In this document: positions 12,202-45,649 of the stretch, in pieces
Layout of the letters: each line of letters starts with the position of its first letter
Position numbering within the stretch: position 1 is the first letter of the stretch
DNA from: a virus
IMG/VR virus record: IMGVR_UViG_3300031463_000011
Coordinates: 1 to 48,595 of that record
Length of the DNA: 48,595 nucleotides
Direction: 5' to 3' (one strand)
Position numbers and translations under genes: made by a program
Notes under the pieces: generated by a model
What the model saw: the letters and a program-made list of their open reading frames with translations, nothing else
What the model was told of the DNA's origin: nothing
Database searches by the model: none

Positions 12202-12486
12202 ATGATATCGGAAGTTCAAAAGAACGTAAGTTTGTTATGGTTAAACCCGCATTTACGATGGGTATTTGCATTATTAATAATAAGCGAACTAGGGGCGATT
12301 TGGTTTCCACATTTCCAAGAACAGTTCGCTGCAACACAGAAAGTATTTTTATTGTATGGATTAGCAGTTGCGGCTAATTCAGCTCCAGACGATTACAATA
12401 AAATTACTGAACCGAAAAATGAAAAGTCAAATGCACCTGATAAAACTGATCAAGCACCTCGGAATTCCGAGGTGTCCAAAAATTAG
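12202..12486 (+). CDS. Holin-like small membrane protein
   Basis: The 94-residue protein has two hydrophobic segments: WVFALLIISELGAIWF (about residues 19-34) and VFLLYGLAVAANSA (about 48-61), followed by a polar, charged C-terminus. This topology fits a two-segment (class II-type) holin, which permeabilises the inner membrane in lysis. It overlaps the following lipoprotein gene by 68 bp, typical of lysis cassettes. The C-terminal codons contain a perfect 20-bp palindrome (12455-12474) encoding PRNSEV. No endolysin neighbour was recognised, so the holin role is tentative. Confidence 0.55.
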   Translation: MISEVQKNVSLLWLNPHLRWVFALLIISELGAIWFPHFQEQFAATQKVFLLYGLAVAANSAPDDYNKITEPKNEKSNAPDKTDQAPRNSEVSKN

Positions 12487-12817
12487 ACACATAAGCAATA
12501 TTGTAGCGGGGATTATATTGGCCATATTAATTTTAGGCTGTACAACGCAGGGTGCTAAAGTTGTTGCGTACAGGACACTTTGGACGACGCAAACGACTGT
12601 TAATACAGCATTTGACTCATATTTACGGTTAATTGTGATGGGTGAAGCGCCTACAAATTATTTACCGCAGATAAGTCAAGCATATGACAGTTTTCAAGAT
12701 GCATTTAAGCTAGCTGTATTAATAGCTGAGACTGATCCAGCTAACCCATGTTTATCTAATATTACTGTACAAGCTACAGAATTAATCAAAACAATTGAAC
12801 GGGCTAAACAAAAATGA
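12419..12817 (+). CDS. Lipoprotein, spanin candidate
   Basis: I start at the ATG at 12419, giving 132 residues; an upstream in-frame start at 12368 is possible. A hydrophobic stretch (IVAGIILAILILG, about residues 28-40) ends in an ILGC lipobox with Cys41, then TTQGAKVV. This is a bacterial lipoprotein signal, although the 27-residue n-region is unusually long and basic. The mature part is about 92 residues and helical. Its nesting inside the upstream holin-like gene is reminiscent of Rz/Rz1-type outer spanins. A true internal start near the hydrophobic core might give a more typical signal. Membrane-anchored lysis accessory protein is the best guess. Confidence 0.5.
   Translation: MKSQMHLIKLIKHLGIPRCPKIRHISNIVAGIILAILILGCTTQGAKVVAYRTLWTTQTTVNTAFDSYLRLIVMGEAPTNYLPQISQAYDSFQDAFKLAVLIAETDPANPCLSNITVQATELIKTIERAKQK
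12455..12490. promoter_or_regulatory. Palindromic element, copy 1 (in holin-like gene)
   Basis: Bases 12455-12474 are a perfect 20-bp palindrome, cacctcggaattccgaggtg, with an EcoRI site at its centre. It is followed by an imperfect inverted repeat gtgtc-N9-gacac at 12472-12490. The same element occurs at 30523-30557 and 45539-45595. The palindrome lies in the coding region of two overlapping genes, so a regulatory or centromere-like role is more likely than chance. The gene at 32349 encodes a ParB-like protein. Confidence 0.65.
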
Positions 12818-14972: not shown

Positions 14973-16793
14973 ATGCCTGGGCCGACAGATATAAATGCAG
15001 TTGATGGTAGCCTGGATTTTAGTGGCGGGGTAAATTCAATTAAGGTTACCACTGTGGCTTCTGACTTAAGTCCAGGTGGCCTAAAACGTAACGAACTTGC
15101 ATGGTTAATCAATGGCACAGTTCGCGATGGTGGTATATCACCTCGGTCGGGTTGGAAAAAGATAGTTGAAGTCGGGTTCGACCTCGGTTTTTATCAAGGT
15201 GGTTATTTGTACGAGCCTGACGGTGCTACACCATATATTGTATGTGGATTCGGCGGTAACATATGGAAAATTGATCCTCTATCTTTTGAAGTAACAAATT
15301 TAAGTGATGAATTTGAATTAACAATGCCGCCAGTTCAGCGGCTACATTTTTGTCAGGCTGAAAAATGGTTAATCATTCAAGCTGGTGACAATGTAACATT
15401 ACCATTGTTTTGGGATGGATCAACTTTACGTCAGTCACTAGGTATAATCGGCCGGACTACGCGGCAAGATAATTTAATAAATGAAATACCTGCGGCTGGC
15501 GCGATGGATTATTTCATGGGGCGGTTATGGTACGCGCAAGGCCGTAAATATTGTGCAGGTGACATTGTCGGTAATACAAATTCAGGTACACCTGAATATC
15601 AATACCGTGATTCAGTTTTATGTGTAACAGAAAATCCATTAGCAATTGGTGGTGACGGGTTCACTGTACCGACTAACGCAGGTGATATCAGGGCAATTAA
15701 ACATAATGCAACACTTGATACTGCCTTAGGGGAAGGACGCCTGATGATTTTTACCCGGAAAGAAATTTATTCATTAAGTGTACCTGTTACACGCTCTGCT
15801 TGGATTGAAGCAAATGCAAATAACATGCCGTTACAAACTGTTGTACAGATGGTCAACGGCGCAGTTAATGACAGTTCAATTGTAGCTGTAAATGGCGATT
15901 TGTTTTATCAAAGTCTTGAACCTGGGATACGCTCGTTAATCAATGCAATTCGTTATTTTGATCAATGGGGTAATATGCCCATCAGCGCAGACATGGATAG
16001 GATACTGCGCTTAAATGATAGATCATTACTATTCGCTGCAAGTGGAATAGTATTTAACAACCGAATGTTACAAACTGCATTACCTGAACGCACAGATAAT
16101 GGGATTGTGCATAGGGCATTATGCGTAATGGATTTTTTACCTATTAGTAGTTTTCGTGAACGTCGTGACCCGAATTGGGAAGGTATATACGAAGGCGCAG
16201 ATATTTTACAGCTTTTCAGTGGCGATTACGGTGGGCTAGAACGCGCCTTTATGTTGGTTGTATCACAGGCAACGGGTGGAATTGAACTATGGGAAATTAG
16301 TTACGATGAAACAACAGATTTAGACGATCGCAGGTTACAGTGGTATGTTGAATTTCCCGCATTTACGTGGGGCAGCGAATTTACACGGAAACGACTTACT
16401 GGTGGCGCACTTTGGATTGATAATGTTATTGGTACAGTTGACTTATCTTTTTACTATAGATCAGACGGTTGTCCATGTTGGTTCGATTGGTGGACAGTGC
16501 AAAAATGTTCACCGCGTGACGTAAGTGAAACCCCTCTAGCAGAGTTTCTTAAGGTACCAGAAAATTATCCATTTGAACCGTATGCAGCCGGACATGCAGC
16601 AGCAATTTTGTTACCGCGCCCGAAGGCAAGTTGTATGCCGATGTGCGATGAGGCTGTCCCGTCAAATGTAGGTTACCAATTTCAAGTTGCAATACGAATT
16701 GAAGGGTATTGCCGAATACGAGGGCTTTTATTGTATGCTGAGCCTGTGATTGAAAAGATATACGGTAAGACGCAGACTCCAATAGTCACATGA
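14973..16793 (+). CDS. Beta-propeller tail/stabilisation-type virion protein
   Basis: I start at ATG 14973 (MPGPTDINAV), because the upstream ATG at 14892 overlaps the divergent terminase start. The 606-residue protein begins with a SGGVNSI...LSPGGLKRNELAWLINGTVRDGGI...R-G-W pattern found in short-tailed-phage tail-completion or hub proteins related in style to P22 gp10. The middle is beta-rich with repeated GGxxW/GxLxY blades suggesting a propeller. It overlaps the following gene by 4 bp (ATGA). It probably belongs to the tail hub or the DNA-stabilisation complex below the portal. Seven cysteines cluster in the C-terminal part around 540-610. Confidence 0.6.
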   Translation: MPGPTDINAVDGSLDFSGGVNSIKVTTVASDLSPGGLKRNELAWLINGTVRDGGISPRSGWKKIVEVGFDLGFYQGGYLYEPDGATPYIVCGFGGNIWKIDPLSFEVTNLSDEFELTMPPVQRLHFCQAEKWLIIQAGDNVTLPLFWDGSTLRQSLGIIGRTTRQDNLINEIPAAGAMDYFMGRLWYAQGRKYCAGDIVGNTNSGTPEYQYRDSVLCVTENPLAIGGDGFTVPTNAGDIRAIKHNATLDTALGEGRLMIFTRKEIYSLSVPVTRSAWIEANANNMPLQTVVQMVNGAVNDSSIVAVNGDLFYQSLEPGIRSLINAIRYFDQWGNMPISADMDRILRLNDRSLLFAASGIVFNNRMLQTALPERTDNGIVHRALCVMDFLPISSFRERRDPNWEGIYEGADILQLFSGDYGGLERAFMLVVSQATGGIELWEISYDETTDLDDRRLQWYVEFPAFTWGSEFTRKRLTGGALWIDNVIGTVDLSFYYRSDGCPCWFDWWTVQKCSPRDVSETPLAEFLKVPENYPFEPYAAGHAAAILLPRPKASCMPMCDEAVPSNVGYQFQVAIRIEGYCRIRGLLLYAEPVIEKIYGKTQTPIVT

Positions 16794-19887: not shown

Positions 19888-21204
19888 ATGGCTACATATA
19901 GTCTGCTAGACCAGCTTAGAGAATGGAATGCCCTTGGCGGCATATACCCTACTACACCTGACATAAACATTGATATACCGTCAATTGAAACGTTATTGCC
20001 CGGCGCATATGAAACGTTTAGTGGTTCAGCAGGGGAAGCCACTGACATTGCGCAACAAGTCAGTTCCGAACTGTTACGGCAAATACAGGAACAATTAGGT
20101 GCGCAAGTGCCTAATTATCCGGAACTGACTCAGCAGAGGAGTGATATAATTTCAAGTGAGTTACGTGGTGAATTACCTGCTGATGTTGAAAGTCAAATTG
20201 CCCAAGCTGCAGCGGAACGCGGTATTCAAATAGGTGCACCGCTATCGGAAAATGTAAATGCAGAATTATTGCGTGCACTTGGGTTAACATCGTTGCAGAT
20301 GCAACAATCTGGCCTTTCGAATCTGTTACAAGCAATTCAGGGAGCTCGTGTTCAACCATATTTCCCAGAACAAGCTATGATATCGCCTCTTGAATATATC
20401 AATTACGAATCTCAACGAGAGTTAATACCGCAAATCCTTGAGGCATTGCTAAAGACACAAACACAACAGGCACGTGCATTGCAGCAAAGTGCATTAGGAG
20501 CACGCCCTAGCCAGAGACAAAGCACGCCATCTGGACCTAATTTGGGAGATTTATTGAACAATTTAATGGAGGCAATCGCGCGATCCGGGCTGGGTCGTGG
20601 GACTGGCCTTGGCGGGCTGGGCCTTGGCGGGTTAGGCCGAGGCGCGTTGGGTCCTGAAGCGTTTGCCCGTACCACTGGCGCAGGAGGCCCACTAGGTATG
20701 GGTTATCGAGAAGGAGGTCGGGAAGGAGGTCTAGATGAAGCCCTACAACAAGCTCAAGAAGGAGGTCTAGGTTATACATCGCCTTATGAAGATTGGGGGT
20801 TTTTAGACGAGTTATACAATTATTATCCTGACCTTATTTATTTAGTACCTGAACTTCAAGATTGGTACGAGTTGGGTATCCCGCCAACTGGGCAAGACTG
20901 GATATCGGACGTTCTCGACATTGCTCCTGACACATGGTGGCAATTCCCAGAATTATATGACTGGGCCTTTGGCGGGTTAGGCGAGCAATATTGGCAAGAA
21001 TATGGCGCTGATTGGTACACACCTGAAGATTACGGTTGGTCTGATTGGGCCGACTGGTACGCACCTGAAGAATATGAAGATTACGGCTGGTCTGATTGGG
21101 CTGATTGGTATGCACCTGAAGATTATGAAGGTTATGATTGGTCTGATTCGTACGCACCTGAAGAATATGATTGGTCTGATTGGGGCGATTGGTATTGGGA
21201 CTAA
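19888..21204 (+). CDS. Virion protein with Gly-rich hinge and aromatic-acidic repeat tail
   Basis: The 438-residue protein has a helical N-terminal half, a Gly/Leu-rich hinge (GLGGLGLGGLG, about residues 240-258) with three EGG repeats, and a C-terminal 130 residues made almost only of Trp, Tyr, Asp, Glu, Ala and Gly. The final 75 residues are tandem units of about 18-20 residues built on W-S-D-W-A-D-W-Y-A-P-E-(D/E)-Y. The tail is very acidic. It starts 2 bp after the previous gene and precedes the coiled-coil and giant internal proteins, so an ejection or core protein is likely. The acidic aromatic tail might mimic DNA or mediate self-association; this is inference. Confidence 0.5.
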   Translation: MATYSLLDQLREWNALGGIYPTTPDINIDIPSIETLLPGAYETFSGSAGEATDIAQQVSSELLRQIQEQLGAQVPNYPELTQQRSDIISSELRGELPADVESQIAQAAAERGIQIGAPLSENVNAELLRALGLTSLQMQQSGLSNLLQAIQGARVQPYFPEQAMISPLEYINYESQRELIPQILEALLKTQTQQARALQQSALGARPSQRQSTPSGPNLGDLLNNLMEAIARSGLGRGTGLGGLGLGGLGRGALGPEAFARTTGAGGPLGMGYREGGREGGLDEALQQAQEGGLGYTSPYEDWGFLDELYNYYPDLIYLVPELQDWYELGIPPTGQDWISDVLDIAPDTWWQFPELYDWAFGGLGEQYWQEYGADWYTPEDYGWSDWADWYAPEEYEDYGWSDWADWYAPEDYEGYDWSDSYAPEEYDWSDWGDWYWD

Positions 21205-21276
21205 TAGAGTGAAGATTGATTTTTGTACATAGACGAAAATTGGACTTATTAACGTTATGCTAATAGCTAGTCGGTT

Positions 21277-29536: not shown

Positions 29537-29902
29537 TTAACTAGTTTGAATTAACTGTTGAAAATCCTTAAATGACCGTATGACATGTACGGTATGGCCA
29601 AGTTTATTAGCCCAGGCTATAAAAGCTTGTTGTTCAGGACGCAGTTTACCTCGACTAGTCTTACATTCGATAAATAACACCTTGCCGTTTTCAGCTAATA
29701 TGACAAAGTCAGGTGTACCAACTTCAATTGTACTTGGCCGGTCTAACCGCGCATGAATTGTTAACCAACCGCGCCGTTTACATTCAGCTAAGATTAAATT
29801 GTGCAATTCTTTCTCGTGCGATACACCGTGCACATCAGAATTTATCGGCGTTTGACGCGCTAACCATTGACTGTACCACGTAGTTGTAAAGCGCGGACTC
29901 AT
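29537..29902 (-). CDS. VRR-NUC domain nuclease
   Basis: The 121-residue protein carries the VRR-NUC pattern: a helix with EKELHNLILAECKRRGW near residue 33, the strand EVGTPDFVILAENGKVLFIECKT near 64-85 (Asp68 and E-x-K at the active site), and GKLRPEQQAFI near 89. VRR-NUC enzymes are PD-(D/E)XK-fold nucleases that cut branched or junction DNA. I choose the ATG that overlaps the primase stop (ATGA at 29902-29899); another ATG lies at 29911. It probably processes replication or recombination intermediates. Confidence 0.85.
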   Translation of the reverse strand: MSPRFTTTWYSQWLARQTPINSDVHGVSHEKELHNLILAECKRRGWLTIHARLDRPSTIEVGTPDFVILAENGKVLFIECKTSRGKLRPEQQAFIAWANKLGHTVHVIRSFKDFQQLIQTS

Positions 29903-30705
29903 ACAATCCATTGTTGAGTTGATACAATCTGTTGTATGCCATGTGCTGTTCCGCCATGCGCAACGTAATCACGCATATCTTTGTCAGGTAACACAATTAT
30001 TACATGTGGCACATGTAATTGCGGACTTAGCTTAAGTGCACCTGAAATACCTGGTTTATCATTATCAGCTACAATAACTACGCGACTGATGTTAAGACGT
30101 TTAATTGTACTGAGTAAAATCTCTGTACCGCTTAAACATGACGGTCGCCCAATTGCATATAACTTAATTGATAATGCAGCCGCAGTATCAGTTGGCCCTT
30201 CAACGATATACACTGTTCGGTCTGGATTTGTATCAGGCAAAAAAATTCCTTCATGTGACCCTTTCACAGTCCATTTACGACCTGTCATTGACCGTAGGCG
30301 AATACCGCATAGTTGGCCATTACCATCTCGCATCGGGAATGCTAATGCGCCATATTCAGGTGCCCAACAACAATGTAACTTCTTAAGCGCTGACACTTTC
30401 ACATTCAAAAAGCTAGCTACACGTCCATAAATTTCGTCTGTAGTGTCATTTTCCCAACGGTTTATTAACGCACGTAATTTATCTACCGTTAACGGTTTAT
30501 CTTTATCAGGTTTAACAAGTGTCACCTCGGAATTCCGAGGTGTCCAGTTTTTGGACAGTCTATGTAACCAGCCGCCATTACGTAATGGGCGGTCTGACTG
30601 TATGCGCATGCAACATGCGCCTAATACACTGTATGTGCACCAGTCAGGTTTACCGCAAACCTGGCAAGGCTGGCGTTTGTTGACTCTGTACCATTGCACT
30701 TGCAT
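29899..30705 (-). CDS. Toprim-domain primase-like protein
   Basis: The 268-residue protein has an N-terminal zinc-binding region (C14, C17, C23 and C31/C32), a middle segment, and a Toprim domain: the VYIVEGPTDTAAAL strand near residue 166 carries the catalytic Glu and VVIVADNDKPG near 209 carries the Asp-x-Asp motif. This fits short DnaG-like or P4-type primase or Toprim proteins that make or handle primers. The helicase region usually fused to them is in the upstream gene, overlapping by 56 bp, so the pair may work as primase and helicase. A perfect palindrome (30523-30542) is inside the coding sequence and encodes PRNSEV. Confidence 0.8.
   Translation of the reverse strand: MQVQWYRVNKRQPCQVCGKPDWCTYSVLGACCMRIQSDRPLRNGGWLHRLSKNWTPRNSEVTLVKPDKDKPLTVDKLRALINRWENDTTDEIYGRVASFLNVKVSALKKLHCCWAPEYGALAFPMRDGNGQLCGIRLRSMTGRKWTVKGSHEGIFLPDTNPDRTVYIVEGPTDTAAALSIKLYAIGRPSCLSGTEILLSTIKRLNISRVVIVADNDKPGISGALKLSPQLHVPHVIIVLPDKDMRDYVAHGGTAHGIQQIVSTQQWIV
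30523..30557. promoter_or_regulatory. Palindromic element, copy 2 (in primase gene)
   Basis: The same 20-bp palindrome as at 12455 lies at 30523-30542, followed by a 17-bp inverted repeat tgtcc-N7-ggaca at 30541-30557. It is inside the coding sequence of the Toprim gene. In both genes where it occurs, the palindrome is read in the frame giving PRNSEV, although the two genes are on opposite strands; a palindrome permits that. Binding partner unknown. Confidence 0.65.
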
Positions 30706-32356
30706 GTTTTATCGGGCGCCAGTTGTTACGTTGTAACATAGTTATAATTTGGGTTGCTTCATCACGTGTCATGTTCGTGTTATAACCGAACCGCCCAAGT
30801 AAGGCTGCCTGTCGAATTGTGCATAGGTTGTTACGCCAACGCCGAAATAGTTCACGAATAATTCGTTGTGCCTGGTCAAATGTTAAACCAGCCGGATCAA
30901 TTCCTTGCCGTAACAATAGTTCACGTTGCCGCGCAGTAATCTGTCGTTCTGAATCGCGCCAGCCAGATAACCCGCGGTCAAATACATCTGTTAATGTGAA
31001 TGGATCAACTAACCGCGTTTTATATTTTGCAGATGCAATTAACCCTGCGCGACGTGCTGCACGACGCGCTTTTTCTTCTTCAATACGTTTCTTTTCTTTT
31101 TCGACATCAACTGCTTCACGTTCAAGTACAACTGCTACAGGTAACGCTTTACCGGATTCCTTAATCTTTTTAACGGCCCGTTCGACTATTTCAGGTGTCC
31201 AACCACCAAGTATATCTGCGCTACAGACAAGCTTGTGCCGACCTGAATTACCAACAAAATCAAGTATTAAACAGTACGGTTTAGCACTGTGCATGATTGC
31301 AGTACGACGTTCTTCAGCCGTTTCAAGCTTTTCAACTATCCCAGGTAACGGACGCATTGACCGACCTGCCATTTGCGCATATAAAGCGCGACTTTTTGTC
31401 GGACGCGCCATTACAATTACTTCAACACCAGGATGATCGTACCCTTCAGTTAACACATTACAGTTAACTACAACTTGAATTTCTTTAGACCGAAACCGTT
31501 GTAATATCATGCGCCGTTCTTTTAATGGTGTTGCACCGCATATCCAAGCTGACATGCCTGGCTGCGCGCGGTTAAATATCTCACAAAGCCATTCAGCTTG
31601 TTTAACACTTGCAGTGAATACGATCGCTTTCCTTGTACCGATAATGTTTATTGTAGCTGCTGCAACACCTTGCAGGTTACGTTCACGTTCCATTACCTCA
31701 GCTAGTTCAGTTGCCTTAAGGTCACCTGCAACAGTTTTAATATGCGAAAAATCTAATCCTTCAATTGTGACAAACTGTTGTTGGATATCAACTAACCAGC
31801 CGTCACGTATTGCATCTAAAATTTCGTATCGGTCAGCTACAGTATCGAATACTTGGCCTAAAGCGCGTTGATCGTACCGATCCGGTGTAGCTGTTACACC
31901 TAACACACGTAGTTTATCGTTTTGTTTGAACCATTCGATGATTTCTAAGTAACTGTTGGCAACTGCATGATGACATTCGTCTATAACTAATAGATCGAAA
32001 TCAGTCGGGTTAAACCGATGTAACCGTTTACGTTCTGTACCAATAGACGAAATTAAAGTTTGTACAGTAGATAAAACAACCGGTGCACGGCCAAATAAGG
32101 ATTGCGCAGCGTGTAAATCGGCCATCTCAATATCACATGGTAACCCTGTCAATGACTCAATTTGAGCGCGGCCCTGCCATATTAATTCTTCACGATGCGC
32201 GATGAAGAGCGTGCGGCCAGGTCGCGTGCGCTTGATCAATTCTGCGCACACAATTGTTTTACCGCATCCGGTTGGATATACTACTAAAGCTGACCTGTGC
32301 CGCCTAAACGCGTCTTCGACCGCTTCAACTGTACGTAGCTGATACGGCCTAAGCAT
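30650..32356 (-). CDS. Superfamily 2 DEAD/DEAH-like helicase
   Basis: The 568-residue protein has Walker A PTGCGKT (residues 28-34), DECHH (126-130), a TATP motif III, and a C-terminal helicase domain with VNCNVLTEGYDHPGV and an arginine-rich QMAGRSMRP motif VI. This is the SSL2/UvrB-like SF2 family found in phages, where it unwinds DNA in replication or repair. A long charged helix (about 420-450, KEKKRIEEEKARRAARR) follows the core. It overlaps the ParB-like stop by 8 bp and its 3' end overlaps the primase gene, so the three are co-expressed. Might serve as replicative helicase. Confidence 0.9.
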   Translation of the reverse strand: MLRPYQLRTVEAVEDAFRRHRSALVVYPTGCGKTIVCAELIKRTRPGRTLFIAHREELIWQGRAQIESLTGLPCDIEMADLHAAQSLFGRAPVVLSTVQTLISSIGTERKRLHRFNPTDFDLLVIDECHHAVANSYLEIIEWFKQNDKLRVLGVTATPDRYDQRALGQVFDTVADRYEILDAIRDGWLVDIQQQFVTIEGLDFSHIKTVAGDLKATELAEVMERERNLQGVAAATINIIGTRKAIVFTASVKQAEWLCEIFNRAQPGMSAWICGATPLKERRMILQRFRSKEIQVVVNCNVLTEGYDHPGVEVIVMARPTKSRALYAQMAGRSMRPLPGIVEKLETAEERRTAIMHSAKPYCLILDFVGNSGRHKLVCSADILGGWTPEIVERAVKKIKESGKALPVAVVLEREAVDVEKEKKRIEEEKARRAARRAGLIASAKYKTRLVDPFTLTDVFDRGLSGWRDSERQITARQRELLLRQGIDPAGLTFDQAQRIIRELFRRWRNNLCTIRQAALLGRFGYNTNMTRDEATQIITMLQRNNWRPIKHASAMVQSQQTPALPGLR

Positions 32357-33308
32357 ATTTTTTGCGTTTCATTTCTGACGGTACAGCATGATCCCAGCGA
32401 AACTTACTTATCAGACCCGTGCTAGCGCAAAAATCGCATTTGGTCAGTGCAAGTGCATTACAAAATGGACAAACAACCCACGGCATACACGACCGTACAG
32501 TTGTAATTAAATTGTTTAAGTCAGTTAACGCTGCTTGAAACATAAATTCGTGCCATAACGGATCGTCTTTAGCCGCCTTCAGTAAGTTTTCAATTTCAAT
32601 TAACCTGTCTATTACAGCTTGAATTTCATGACGCCGATTCCAAATCACAAGCGCAGGATCGGGGATTGGATTGCCCAACCCATCTATCGGTGAGCCAACT
32701 TGCGTAGGCGAAGACTGAACCTCGGTCTTAGCTGCCAACAGCATACATGGCGACTGTATAGTTGGGTTTTTGTCGTGATCGCAGGCTGTAGGGTGCCGCG
32801 TGGGTTGCACTGGCGGCAATAGTCGCCCGTCCTTAGCGATCCTGCGCTTAAAAGATTTAAGTTCACCTGTCCGTTCGAGTAACGCACGAACAGATGCTAC
32901 TGTATGGTCATCTACCTGGACTAGCCTCGCTATATACGCATTTGAATAGTTCGGCCAACGTTTTAATGCGAGTTCAACTGCAACTTGTTTATCTGCACGT
33001 GACCGACGTAACCCATGTTTTGTATTTGCTTGTAGTGCAGCGCATAACGCTGCATCGTAATCTGCATTTGGATAAATAATAGCTAGGATACTTTCACCAC
33101 CATTTCTCTTTACAGCCTGTAACCGGTGTAACCCGTCAGTTAACAATAAATCGTTACCGACTTGATACAGTGTAATTGGTGGATATTTATCACCAGCTAA
33201 CATCCGTGCTGCATATTCAGATACAACTTCAAGGTTAAGTTCAGCACGTGGAATTGGACTTTTACTTAAACAAATGTTTGCAATAGGAATTTCTTGTTCG
33301 TGCGACAT
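32349..33308 (-). CDS. ParB/Srx-like protein with HTH and C-terminal zinc ribbon
   Basis: The 319-residue protein has an N-terminal ParB/Srx domain (residues about 20-90) with LLLTDGLHRLQAVKRNGG, the hallmark [D/T]GxHRxxA motif, then an HTH (SNAYIARLVQVDDHTVASV, about 124-142) and a C-terminal CPFCN...CDFC zinc ribbon. Chromosomal and plasmid ParB proteins bind palindromic parS sites, use CTP and spread; the phage members often act as DNA-binding or nuclease-like regulators. No ParA is present. The 20-bp palindromes at 12455, 30523 and 45553 are candidate targets, which is inference only. Confidence 0.8.
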   Translation of the reverse strand: MSHEQEIPIANICLSKSPIPRAELNLEVVSEYAARMLAGDKYPPITLYQVGNDLLLTDGLHRLQAVKRNGGESILAIIYPNADYDAALCAALQANTKHGLRRSRADKQVAVELALKRWPNYSNAYIARLVQVDDHTVASVRALLERTGELKSFKRRIAKDGRLLPPVQPTRHPTACDHDKNPTIQSPCMLLAAKTEVQSSPTQVGSPIDGLGNPIPDPALVIWNRRHEIQAVIDRLIEIENLLKAAKDDPLWHEFMFQAALTDLNNLITTVRSCMPWVVCPFCNALALTKCDFCASTGLISKFRWDHAVPSEMKRKKYA

Positions 33309-36624: not shown

Positions 36625-36846
36625 TTACCTCCTTAACATCCGGCTAAGCTGGTAGTGCCAGATAGTAGGTTGTGCCTTGTGTCGGCTTAACCGACGCAGA
36701 ACATACAACAACAGCATGATTAATATTATGCTTATGCCGATGTTCTGTACCAGCTCAAGGCGGGTTTCAGTTTCATTTAACCGATGTTCACACTCGGCCA
36801 AACGGCCAATGAACACCGAAATGTCAGGTGGTTGATAAGGCAGCAT
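36625..36846 (-). CDS. XhlA-like small membrane protein
   Basis: The 73-residue protein has an N-terminal coiled coil (GRLAECEHRLNETETRLELV, about residues 13-32) followed by one membrane segment (IGISIILIMLLLYVL, about 36-50) and a basic C-terminus. This matches haemolysin XhlA-type lysis accessory proteins. A sigma70-like promoter (36861-36889) places the transcript start only a few bases upstream of the ATG, so the mRNA could be nearly leaderless. Membrane protein gene 35814 follows with 1 bp between. Confidence 0.55.
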   Translation of the reverse strand: MLPYQPPDISVFIGRLAECEHRLNETETRLELVQNIGISIILIMLLLYVLRRLSRHKAQPTIWHYQLSRMLRR

Positions 36847-36860
36847 ACCGAGTTAAGGTT

Positions 36861-36889
36861 ATTTTGTTTACGTTTTACATTTTTGTCAA
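36861..36889 (-). promoter_or_regulatory. Sigma70-like leftward promoter
   Basis: On the minus strand a perfect -35 TTGACA (36889-36884) is followed after 17 bases by CAAAAT (36866-36861), 4 of 6 matches to TATAAT. It overlaps the 3' end of the upstream gene and would start transcription around 36854, just before the ATG at 36846. It probably drives the membrane-protein pair and the downstream recombination genes. Confidence 0.55.
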
Positions 36890-37840
36890 GGGAAAACAGT
36901 AGCATAATAAATCTAACTCATTTTTCATCACTACTTGACCGCGAATTGATTCTGGCCCGGTAATTGTGCGACTGAAAATGTGCCAACCCCTTGTGGTTAC
37001 AGCAATTTTATCAAACGATTTAATGCGGTACCCGCCAGATTCTAAAAGCATTTTACGAGTATCAATCGCTAGGTCTTTAACCGTTTTATCTAAGATTATA
37101 AACTGTGCGGGGACACTGTACTTTCTTGTTAGTGGTATAAATGAGAATCTGTTGATTACAGTCAGTTCAATTTTGTTTTGGTTAAGCATTAAGGTTAACT
37201 CAATTATTTCATTGTTAGTTGCACGGGGCGGTTTCATACCTCTAGCTCGCTTAACTGCGCGTAATTCAGATAATAACGCTTTAATAGTTGATTCAATTAA
37301 TTGTGGTTCAACCTTACACTCAAATCCACGTTCAGCAGTTAAAACATATTTTGCACCCCTTAATGCAACTTCATACTTGGTAAAATCGTCCAGTTCGCCG
37401 AAATCGTCTTCGTTAAATACCCAATATATCGGCTGAGAAAATAAAGGTCGCTGAGACAAACCGACCTGTAATTCTTCATCATTGAAGCGCATATAGATAA
37501 TATCCGCTGGGTACGGTTCAATCTTTCTAAATATGTAGGGTAACGTTTTCCACCTTGCCGGCCACATCGCTAACTTTTGCTTATACAGATATATCCTACT
37601 AGCCTTTGTCCACAGTGACATCTCGTCGTCATCTGAATGAAAATAGATATGGACTAAATTGTGATACACTGCATAAGGACTTTGCGAATGTGGACGTAAT
37701 ATTGCTGGGGGCGGTTTTTTAAGCACGTTATATGCATATGTAGGTTCATACGCGTACAATACTAGTTCGCGAATGACTTGTTTTGGGACCGGTATCCAAG
37801 GTGACCAGTTCAGTTTCATTTGTTGAAATTTAGTTTTCAT
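36875..37840 (-). CDS. Hypothetical protein, 321 residues
   Basis: A soluble protein rich in aromatic residues and proline in its first 130 residues (YAYEPTYAYNVLKKPPP) with an EPYPADIIYMRFN segment, then a helical middle and a strand-rich C-terminus (TTRGWHIFSRTITGP). No catalytic motif is evident. The ATG follows an AGAAAGGAAAAA leader as in several neighbouring leftward genes, and overlaps the end of the repeat-protein gene by 11 bp. A role in host takeover is possible but unshown. Confidence 0.55.
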   Translation of the reverse strand: MKTKFQQMKLNWSPWIPVPKQVIRELVLYAYEPTYAYNVLKKPPPAILRPHSQSPYAVYHNLVHIYFHSDDDEMSLWTKASRIYLYKQKLAMWPARWKTLPYIFRKIEPYPADIIYMRFNDEELQVGLSQRPLFSQPIYWVFNEDDFGELDDFTKYEVALRGAKYVLTAERGFECKVEPQLIESTIKALLSELRAVKRARGMKPPRATNNEIIELTLMLNQNKIELTVINRFSFIPLTRKYSVPAQFIILDKTVKDLAIDTRKMLLESGGYRIKSFDKIAVTTRGWHIFSRTITGPESIRGQVVMKNELDLLCYCFPLTKM

Positions 37841-38282
37841 TTTTTCCTTTCTGTTCAGCTAACAGTTTTGCATTTGCGCATAACGCCGTCACTTTATCTA
37901 ACAGTCCATAATCTTCACTTATCCGATGTTCAGTCCCTTCCAATATGCACAAAAGGTCTGTGCGTAAATCGAAAAGCTCGTTCAACTTTGATGCAGCTAA
38001 CTGGCGTAACTGATCAAGTCGCTCGACTAACTCATCTAATGGCAGGTTTTTATTTCTTTTCTCCTGTTCGGCCAGCAGTTTTGCATTTGCGCATAACGCC
38101 GTTAGCGTATCTAGCAGTTCATAGCCTTCAATTATACGTTGTTCAATTGCTTCCAATGCAGTGCAACAATACGCGCGTAAATTAAAAAGCTCGCGTATAT
38201 TCACTGCAGGTAACTGTGGTAACTGCTCAAGTCGCTTGATTAATTCATCTAATGTCAGGTCGTTATTTATTGTCTTTGTCAT
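37830..38282 (-). CDS. Helical repeat protein with two tandem units
   Basis: The 150-residue protein consists of two copies of a unit of about 65 residues: LTLDELIKRLEQL...ELF-LR...LLDTLTALCANAKLLAEQ and NLPLDELVERLDQL...ELFDLR...LLDKVTALCANAKLLAEQ. The same unit occurs once in the next downstream gene (38311). This is an intragenic duplication plus a gene duplication. The unit is predicted to be a helical coiled bundle, leucine-rich, with one conserved Cys before the final helix. I know no named family; it may be a protein-binding adaptor. Confidence 0.6.
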   Translation of the reverse strand: MTKTINNDLTLDELIKRLEQLPQLPAVNIRELFNLRAYCCTALEAIEQRIIEGYELLDTLTALCANAKLLAEQEKRNKNLPLDELVERLDQLRQLAASKLNELFDLRTDLLCILEGTEHRISEDYGLLDKVTALCANAKLLAEQKGKNEN

Positions 38283-38310
38283 AACACTTAGTTTTATTGA
38301 TGTTTAGTTT

Positions 38311-38541
38311 TTATTTTTTCTCCTGTTCAGCTAATAGCTTTGCCTTTATGTATAGCTCCGTCACTTTATCTAACAGTCCGTAGCCGTCACCTATACGTTC
38401 TTCAATTGTTTGCAATGTGGCTAAACAATCTGCGCGTAATTCGAATAACTCGTTCAGATTTGCCGTAACTAACTGACTCAACTGGTTAAGTCGCTGGGCT
38501 ATCTCGTCTAATGGCAGGTTATCACTAGTTGGCTTTGTCAT
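38311..38541 (-). CDS. Helical repeat protein with one unit
   Basis: The 76-residue protein holds a single copy of the unit duplicated in the gene at 37830: NLPLDEIAQRLNQL, NELFELRADC, GYGLLDKVTELYIKAKLLAEQ. The ATG follows AGGAGGT with about 10 bases spacing. A 47-codon frame upstream ends with ATGA overlapping this ATG. Upstream lie two strong hairpins that may control it. Function unknown. Confidence 0.6.
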   Translation of the reverse strand: MTKPTSDNLPLDEIAQRLNQLSQLVTANLNELFELRADCLATLQTIEERIGDGYGLLDKVTELYIKAKLLAEQEKK

Positions 38542-38567
38542 AATATTATACCTCCTATAAGTGCGGT

Positions 38568-42570: not shown

Positions 42571-43668
42571 TTAATCTTTATCAGTTTCAGGTGGTTTATA
42601 ATGGATTTTCCCGCCAACTGATTTTGCTTCAATCCCAATATTAGTTGCCCGAACTCGAATTGTACGGTGGTTTTTATGGCGGATATCAACCCAGCATGGT
42701 TGGTCTTTAAACTCTAAGATGAAAGATGCGTCTGGTGAGGCATAAATTGCTACAGGTGCAGGGTTAAATTCGCATGATTTAACTAAATCCGGCATATGAT
42801 TTAACTGAGTCTCTTTATCTTTAGGCTGGAATATGGCAGGGCCAAAGTATACATCGCCTTGGCGAGTGAAATGCAACGGTGGCACTATCGGGTTTTCTCG
42901 AACTAACGAAAAGCTCGGCCCTAAATCAGACAGTTTAATTTCCCATGCAAACCGTTTACCTGTACGTGTAACCCATTCAGCTTCAACACCCCAAAAACCG
43001 CCATCTACATCATCATACAACGGTACAGCATTAAACTGGCCTTTCCCGGACACTGTACCGGCAGCAATATAGTCACTTGACTTAAATTCGTCTCTATTAT
43101 CGGTCGAGTGCGCAAAATACCGTACAACTCTATACCACGCTGCCGATTTTGGTTCACGTTCAACACTGACTGATACTGCACCATAGGGTGTATCTACCAA
43201 CTTATAAAATGCTTGGTATTGCCTAAATGCGCGTGCACGCCAAAAGATAGGTTGTGTTTCAGGCGGGAACAACGGTGCAAATGCGTCTAATGCATCAATT
43301 AGGTCATTAAACGCATGTTGCGCATTGGCATATTCTTCAGGAAAATACCGTGTCCGTTGTGTATTACGTAATCTCAGAGCGCGGTACGCCTCGCGATACA
43401 ACGATATCGCTAGGCCTAAATCGGTCGAATTTTGCGGGTTTAATTTGCGTGCATATGCAGCTAATTGCTGCACATAATCGCTAATTGCACCGTTTAACAA
43501 TCTTTGGTCGAGTGAATCACTCTGTAAGAGGGCCTTTTCCGGCCCAATTGCCTTCATGATACGTAAAGGCTCATCAACTTGGTTTAAGACACTTAAAAAA
43601 AGAGCCGTTCTTTCAAACGGCTCAATACGGACATTACTCATATTATTACTCATACTCTCACTACTCAT
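42571..43668 (-). CDS. Hypothetical protein, 365 residues
   Basis: I use the ATG at 43668 (MSSESMSNN), outside the upstream gene; an ATG at 43728 would overlap it. The N-terminal half is helical and Arg/Ala-rich (ALRLRNTQRTRYFPEEYANAQ), the C-terminal half is strand-rich with WKVLE-like segments (KFEFKDQPCWVDIRHKNH-style) that look like an OB or beta-sandwich domain. No motif recognised. Its stop is followed after 1 bp by the next gene's ATG. Unknown early protein. Confidence 0.5.
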   Translation of the reverse strand: MSSESMSNNMSNVRIEPFERTALFLSVLNQVDEPLRIMKAIGPEKALLQSDSLDQRLLNGAISDYVQQLAAYARKLNPQNSTDLGLAISLYREAYRALRLRNTQRTRYFPEEYANAQHAFNDLIDALDAFAPLFPPETQPIFWRARAFRQYQAFYKLVDTPYGAVSVSVEREPKSAAWYRVVRYFAHSTDNRDEFKSSDYIAAGTVSGKGQFNAVPLYDDVDGGFWGVEAEWVTRTGKRFAWEIKLSDLGPSFSLVRENPIVPPLHFTRQGDVYFGPAIFQPKDKETQLNHMPDLVKSCEFNPAPVAIYASPDASFILEFKDQPCWVDIRHKNHRTIRVRATNIGIEAKSVGGKIHYKPPETDKD

Positions 43669-45538: not shown

Positions 45539-45595
45539 TGTCCATTTTTTAGACACCTCGGAATTCCGAGTTGTACATTTTTTAGACACCTCGGA
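45539..45595. promoter_or_regulatory. Palindromic element, composite copy 3 near the origin
   Basis: A tgtcc...gaca inverted repeat (45539-45555), then a near-complete palindrome cctcggaattccgag (45556-45570) with one mismatched flank, then a second tacattttttagaca plus cacctcgg half-unit (to about 45593). The arrangement is a direct repeat of the flank-plus-palindrome module seen at 12455 and 30523. It lies 13 bases before the DnaA boxes. Confidence 0.65.
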
Positions 45596-45607
45596 GAAAG
45601 CGTGGAT

Positions 45608-45649
45608 TGTGAATAAGTTGTGAATAAGCTGTGAATAACTTGTGAATAA
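45608..45649 (-). other. Four tandem DnaA boxes
   Basis: TTATTCACA on the minus strand (tgtgaataa on the plus strand) occurs at 45608-45616, 45619-45627, 45630-45638 and 45641-45649, exactly 11 bp apart. Each fits the DnaA-box consensus TTATNCACA. The 11-bp spacing puts them on one face of the helix. An AT-rich region follows directly, as expected for an origin opened by host DnaA. Confidence 0.8.

Follow-up and report, generated by a model that had tools for sequence, protein, structure and literature searches.

The window, as the whole stretch of 48,595 nucleotides analyzed here is called, harbours three copies of a 20-bp palindrome. Copy 1 (positions 12455-12474) and copy 2 (30523-30542) are perfect CACCTCGGAATTCCGAGGTG sequences located in coding DNA. 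Copy 1 lies at the 3' end of the ORF 12202-12486, where it is read as APRNSEVSKN followed by the stop codon, and copy 2 lies in a linker (around aa 57, read as TPRNSEV) of a gene encoding a TOPRIM primase-like protein (29899-30705, minus strand). Copy 3 (45554-45573) is intergenic and has one mismatch (CACCTCGGAATTCCGAGTTG), leaving a perfect core of 14 bp (CTCGGAATTCCGAG). A preliminary description of this DNA had reported a perfect 20-bp palindrome at three loci, far beyond chance. Its rarity is borne out by an expected CACCTCGGAATTCCGAGGTG count of 0.00 in 100 dinucleotide shuffles, but perfect copies are present at two of the loci only. The GTCC...GGAC-type flank noted there is real and proved to be a second dyad, TGTCYA-N5-TRGACA, found at four positions. 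This dyad stands beside every CACCTCGGAATTCCGAGGTG copy at a fixed distance (16.5 bp from centre to centre), overlapping the 20-mer by two bases: at 12473-12489 next to copy 1, at 30541-30557 next to copy 2, and on both sides of copy 3, at 45539-45555 on the left and at 45572-45588 (TGTACATTTTTTAGACA) on the right. The order within this composite element (45539-45597) is 17-bp dyad, 20-bp palindrome and 17-bp dyad, an alternation that is continued by half a palindrome (CACCTCGGAG, 45587-45596). The half-sites of the dyad are also those of the palindrome of a related phage, G030 (TGTCYA-N6-TRGACA).

Beside the composite site, four TGTGAATAA repeats on the plus strand (45608-45649, starting at 45608, 45619, 45630 and 45641) follow each other at a spacing of exactly 11 bp and are succeeded by AT-rich DNA. 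These had been taken for DnaA boxes; they look more like iterons, and with the adjoining AT-rich DNA they form a possible replication origin. The termini of the window share a direct repeat of 322 bp, so the window is circular or terminally redundant and represents a complete genome of ~48.27 kb. The three palindromes divide this circle into nearly equal thirds (CV of the gaps 0.087, P=0.009). Two other repeats are present elsewhere in the window: a 236-nt unit in three imperfect copies (37836-38543), representing small genes duplicated in tandem (37830-38282 and 38311-38541), and repeats of a 42-nt unit (21002-21212) at the 3' end of the gene 19888-21204. The window furthermore encodes a ParB-like protein (32349-33308, minus strand), the proposed binder of the palindromes. 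It consists of a ParB/Srx-type N-terminal domain (aa 1-100), a helix-turn-helix (HTH; aa ~120-147, containing VDDHTV), a disordered linker (aa 171-204) and a helical C-terminal domain with a Cys4 zinc-type motif.

The window belongs to a family of uncultured phages with genomes of ~50-59 kb. When viral contigs were scanned for a 17-bp part of the element, two viruses were retrieved, G001 (59,289 bp) and G002 (57,777 bp), both collinear with the window and encoding similar capsid (65 % identity), portal-like (44-46 %), TerL (52 %) and helicase (49-52 %) proteins; in this comparison the ParB-like proteins share 33-35 % identity with that of the window. The element alone thus pulled kin out of 2.9 million contigs. 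An alignment of the capsid protein, blind to the element, yielded 34 contigs with G001 and G002 among them. G001 and G002 were first identified by the motif and the other genomes by capsid or ParB-like protein, the latter route leading to G039. TerL as the sole protein query returned no relatives, whereas the capsid alignment did, and among cultured phages none was found with a capsid similar to that of the window. The exact 24-bp element GACACCTCGGAATTCCGAGGTGTC was absent from the viral contigs searched, and blastn of the palindrome region against phages and plasmids gave no match or a single chance match of 18 bases. Several other hits were discarded: a longer pattern matched a single metagenome-assembled genome (L006) among the genome contigs, which was judged to be a chance coding match, and L015, L016 and L018 each contain one chance copy, in genomes that have 0, 0 and 3 genes, respectively, in common with the family.

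Dispersed palindromes are found in several members of this family, with a sequence of their own in different lineages. Seven relatives carry 8-32 strong copies per genome; the window, with three sites about one third of the genome apart, is a low-copy member. G001 has 13 strong sites resembling CTACCTCGGAATTCCGAGGTAG, G002 has ~32 strong ACCTCGGAnnTCCGAGGT sites and G039 has 15 resembling CTCGGAWTCCGAG; CTCGGAnnTCCGAG is common to these three phages and the window. In the 32 remaining capsid relatives (G001 and G002 apart) CTCGGANNTCCGAG does not occur. De novo searches revealed other palindromes in G015 (TATCGGGGAwTTCCCCGATA), G023 (TCCGGAAwTTCCGGA), G030 (TGTCCACCGCGGTGGACA) and G035 (TGTCAACCGCGGTTGACA). 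In G001, G002, G015, G023, G030 and G035 the number of similar dyads per genome is 8-22, whereas the null reaches 3 at most. Palindromes were also found in the partial contigs G010 (GTCCGGAAATCCGGAC), G024 (TTGGGAAwTCCCAA) and G031 (GTCAACCATGGTTGAC), and the remaining family members showed little or no dispersed palindrome above the null. Absence from related phages had been named beforehand as an observation that would speak against the element; the exact element is indeed absent from most relatives, but several have a diverged equivalent. G030 and G035 have several site positions in common, yet each has its own version of the palindrome (TGTCCACCGCGG and TGTCAACCGCGG, respectively). At the fifth position of the half-site, G030 has C or T in 18 of 18 cases (15 times C) and G035 has A or T in 16 of 16 (14 times A). 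One base thus appears to have been re-tuned at every site, as expected if the sites follow one changing protein. Repeats of a different kind, of the AGAAAGGACAG type, are over-represented in G037 (L094-L096) and also in G009, G011 and G021; these are possibly strong ribosome-binding or leader sequences.

With genes called crudely as the longest ORFs, 89 of 103 strong sites are located within genes, the other 14 being intergenic (expected 8.5, P=0.047). Seven sites are 60 bp or less from a gene start, which is no enrichment over the random expectation of 7.5, and the proposal of a shared operator, taken as a promoter element, is consequently not supported. For gene ends the number is 12 (expected 7.8, P=0.09); some copies lie 10-15 bp past the 3' end of a gene. 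The spacing in G001 is very even, with a site every 3-5.5 kb (CV 0.32, compared to 0.90 for random placement; none of 20,000 simulations was as low, P<5e-5). A moderate tendency to even spacing was observed in G023 (P=0.02) and G002 (P=0.03), and none in G015, of which the genome is incomplete. At copies within conserved protein segments no site-specific insertion is visible (primase of G001, aa 293; scaffold, aa 180 and 419, and TerL, aa 318, of G002; exonuclease of G015, aa 291), indicating that these sites arose through substitutions and were retained. A few of the copies located in protein tails and linkers, such as those in the primase of the window and at 50752 in G035, look like added residues.

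The ParB-like proteins of the family are of two types, which have the Cys4 C-terminal domain in common. Type 1 combines a ParB/Srx N-terminal domain with an HTH; Type 2 has a different, helical N-terminal domain. A Pfam search with the window protein gave no match; it does match the ParB-like phrog_1033 (E 1.5e-10). In an AlphaFold model of Type 1 (pLDDT 80) the N-terminal domain aligns with ParB-CDP and Noc (Z 13.3, rmsd 1.9-2.1 over 96-97 residues), and the model aligns with KorB (Z 12.0, 135 residues). The GxHR nucleotide motif is present, with invariant D58, G59, H61 and R62. The predicted fold, the GxHR motif and the HTH following it place Type 1 in the ParB/Srx superfamily. Folds related to ParB/Srx may also bind NTPs other than CTP (PMC12704722). 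Over 111-113 residues the helical N-terminal domain of Type 2 aligns with Spo0J (Z 10.9) and with Noc-NBS (Z 10.3); the RuBisCO factor Raf1 scores equally and the Foldseek E value is 0.13, making the resemblance of this modelled domain to the DNA-binding domains of these two proteins suggestive only. As Type 2 proteins have no nucleotide-binding N-terminal domain, a CTP clamp could operate in Type 1 members at most. The window was also searched for an additional protein resembling Type 2 that might account for the TGTCYA dyads, and none was found (best E 0.52).

The ParB-like gene itself holds a site in seven of the eight genomes with strong sites, the window being the exception. When the expectation was derived from gene length and number of sites, this family ranked first of 26 shared gene families for site enrichment (P=2.7e-5) with primase next (P=0.016), P values that overstate independence as the genomes are related and have gene positions in common. 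In the primase-like gene, in which the window has palindrome copy 2, G002 has a site at aa 63. The sites in the ParB-like genes are found behind the HTH, in the linker, in G001 (aa 182), G002 (aa 175), G015 (aa 169), G023 (aa 188) and G039 (aa ~171-179), and within or just behind the N-terminal domain in G030 (aa 80) and G035 (aa 84). Mere presence of the gene is not specific to motif-bearing genomes (7 of 7, compared to 10 of 18 motif-less genomes). The type of protein and the type of palindrome do go together: cores of the form GGAA(n)TTCC occur with Type 1 and ACC(GC/AT)GGT with Type 2. The HTH reads VDD[HK]TV in all four phages with CTCGGAnnTCCGAG, despite the low identity (35-37 %) of the window protein to those of G001 and G002, VDNHTV and VTDKTV in the Type 1 proteins of G015 and G023, which have other palindromes, and VGDDLV, VSDSLV, VGVDLV or VSHTFV in motif-less Type 1 phages. 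G027 adjoins G001 in the TerL tree (support 90/85), yet it encodes a Type 2 protein and has no class A sites. The Type 2 genes of G018, G008 and G027, in which no dispersed motif was detected, contain palindromes of 16-18 bp in one and the same region (aa 87, 95 and 94; P 0.003, 0.028 and 0.025, respectively); a further copy, with one mismatch, is present in G018 at 431. When the seven Type 2 genes are taken together, P=6e-5; in the motif-less Type 1 genes of G025, G028, G029, G032 and G038 palindromes occur at chance level. The initial comparison covered seven motif-bearing genomes; of the gene families common to all of them, the ParB-like one is the sole recognisable candidate for sequence-specific DNA binding. 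In a separate group of phages (G040, G041 and G043) palindromes of the CGTTAAwTTwAACG type occur as a cluster of about five (G040 16405-16716, L207; G041 36706-37119, L211; G043 42708-43477, L215) plus one in the linker of the ParB-like gene, which resembles a more classical centromere arrangement.

Taken together, these sequence comparisons make it probable that the palindromes are the binding (loading) sites of the phages' own ParB-like protein across the family, with the palindrome of each lineage matched to the DNA-recognition part of its protein. The link to the protein encoded at 32349-33308, suggested in the preliminary description, is thereby strengthened by the site within the gene in seven of eight genomes, the covariation with the HTH, the correspondence of domain type and motif type and the concerted re-tuning. 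The suggestion of parS-like sites is not supported in the sense of a ParABS centromere: with the PF13614 model no ParA was detected in any of the 10 family genomes, although it scored in all 14 controls, and the sites are distributed across the entire genome. Binding of the palindromes by a different protein, a host factor or another phage protein, with the copy in the ParB-like gene being coincidental or inherited, appears unlikely. It would account for the window, where the ParB-like gene has no site. However, the motif changes between related phages in step with the HTH and domain type of the ParB-like protein, no other sequence-specific DNA-binding family was recognised across all motif-bearing genomes, and in G040, G041 and G043 the ParB-like gene also holds the palindrome that is clustered elsewhere in these genomes. 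The many near-identical copies in coding as well as intergenic DNA, and the tail and linker copies resembling added residues, recall a spreading mobile palindromic element, an REP- or RPE-like insertion. This origin is refuted for the copies within conserved segments and highly improbable in general, as the dyad alone is common to the copies while their flanks differ, and it is at the same base that orthologous sites of G030 and G035 diverge. That the palindromes act as RNA hairpins or transcription terminators is hardly conceivable; the copies just behind gene ends would fit, but no T-run follows those in the window, most copies are deep within genes and the motif covaries with a DNA-binding protein.

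Dispersed transcription-silencing sites, comparable to stoperators and used by the ParB-like protein or another repressor to block transcription, form a possible though doubtful alternative. Cluster A mycobacteriophages carry more than 20 dispersed sites, mostly away from promoters, with a consensus in each phage that tracks its repressor (PMC6550527, PMC9283540), and KorB, a relative of ParB, silences over kilobases (PMC11790492). Stoperators, however, are asymmetric, oriented with transcription and located in short intergenic regions, whereas the sites described here are palindromic and mostly intragenic, without any excess near gene starts. No convincing integrase was found in 10 genomes, hence no sign of lysogeny. 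Partition centromere, promoter operator, oriented stoperator, mobile element and terminator are thus each disfavoured by failed tests. The best explanation is that binding sites of the ParB-like protein would work like KorB operators or Noc sites and not as a ParABS centromere. A dimer of the ParB-like protein would bind each palindrome; Type 1 proteins, with their ParB/Noc-like N-terminal domain, may then, in the manner of KorB and Noc, be loaded as CTP- or NTP-dependent clamps that come to occupy the DNA separating one site from the next. The most likely role would be the formation, independently of ParA, of nucleoprotein complexes all along the phage genome, organising or silencing phage DNA. 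It may be speculated, tentatively, that virulent phages possess here a ParA-independent genome organiser, in which a ParB-like clamp on deliberately spread palindromes covers the replicating genome, and that loading sequence and recognition helix co-diversify so that co-infecting relatives share no sites.

The family offers at least seven naturally diverged pairs of protein and palindrome, of which the binding is predicted. These include related phages differing mainly at one half-site base (G030 and G035) and a case where an N-terminal DNA-binding domain of the other type coincides with disappearance of the sites (G027). Such pairs make the evolution of specificity in ParB-type proteins testable and are candidate orthogonal ParB/parS tools. 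They also raise the question why a phage without detectable ParA marks its whole genome, and does so evenly in G001.

To our knowledge, there are very few systems (KorB, Noc and N15) in which ParB-family proteins are known to have dispersed sites. Plasmid RK2 has about 12 OB sites in 60 kb, Noc works without ParA, and the IR sites of N15 are dispersed on its genome. With ParABS systems the phages share a palindromic site in or next to parB (seven of eight genomes, not the window), unlike these systems no ParA was found. The stoperators of Cluster A mycobacteriophages are similarly dispersed, and their consensus is specific to the genome and follows the protein that binds them (PMC6550527), although this protein is an immunity repressor and the stoperators differ in symmetry, orientation and location as discussed above. 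The plasmid-prophage N15 likewise encodes a ParB-type protein, SopB, acting on four inverted-repeat sites (IR1-4) (PMC7205306); unlike the present family, for which neither ParA nor integrase was found, it has SopA and is maintained as a plasmid prophage. Noc is a ParB-family CTPase with 16-bp sites (NBS) scattered round the chromosome (PMC8429893) and its N-terminal domain matches that of Type 1 (Z 13.3); Noc operates at the host cell membrane, whereas the protein described here is phage-encoded. Compared to KorB and its OB operators on RK2, the phage sites do not precede promoters, every phage has a palindrome of its own and one copy lies in the parB-like gene, and the phage proteins have a Cys4 C-terminal domain while some members have no nucleotide-binding domain. 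KorB does share with the phage system the dispersal of palindromic operators across the replicon. It also has a ParB-family N-terminal domain with an HTH, and its palindromic sites can act from a distance in a replicon of similar size (PMC11790492).
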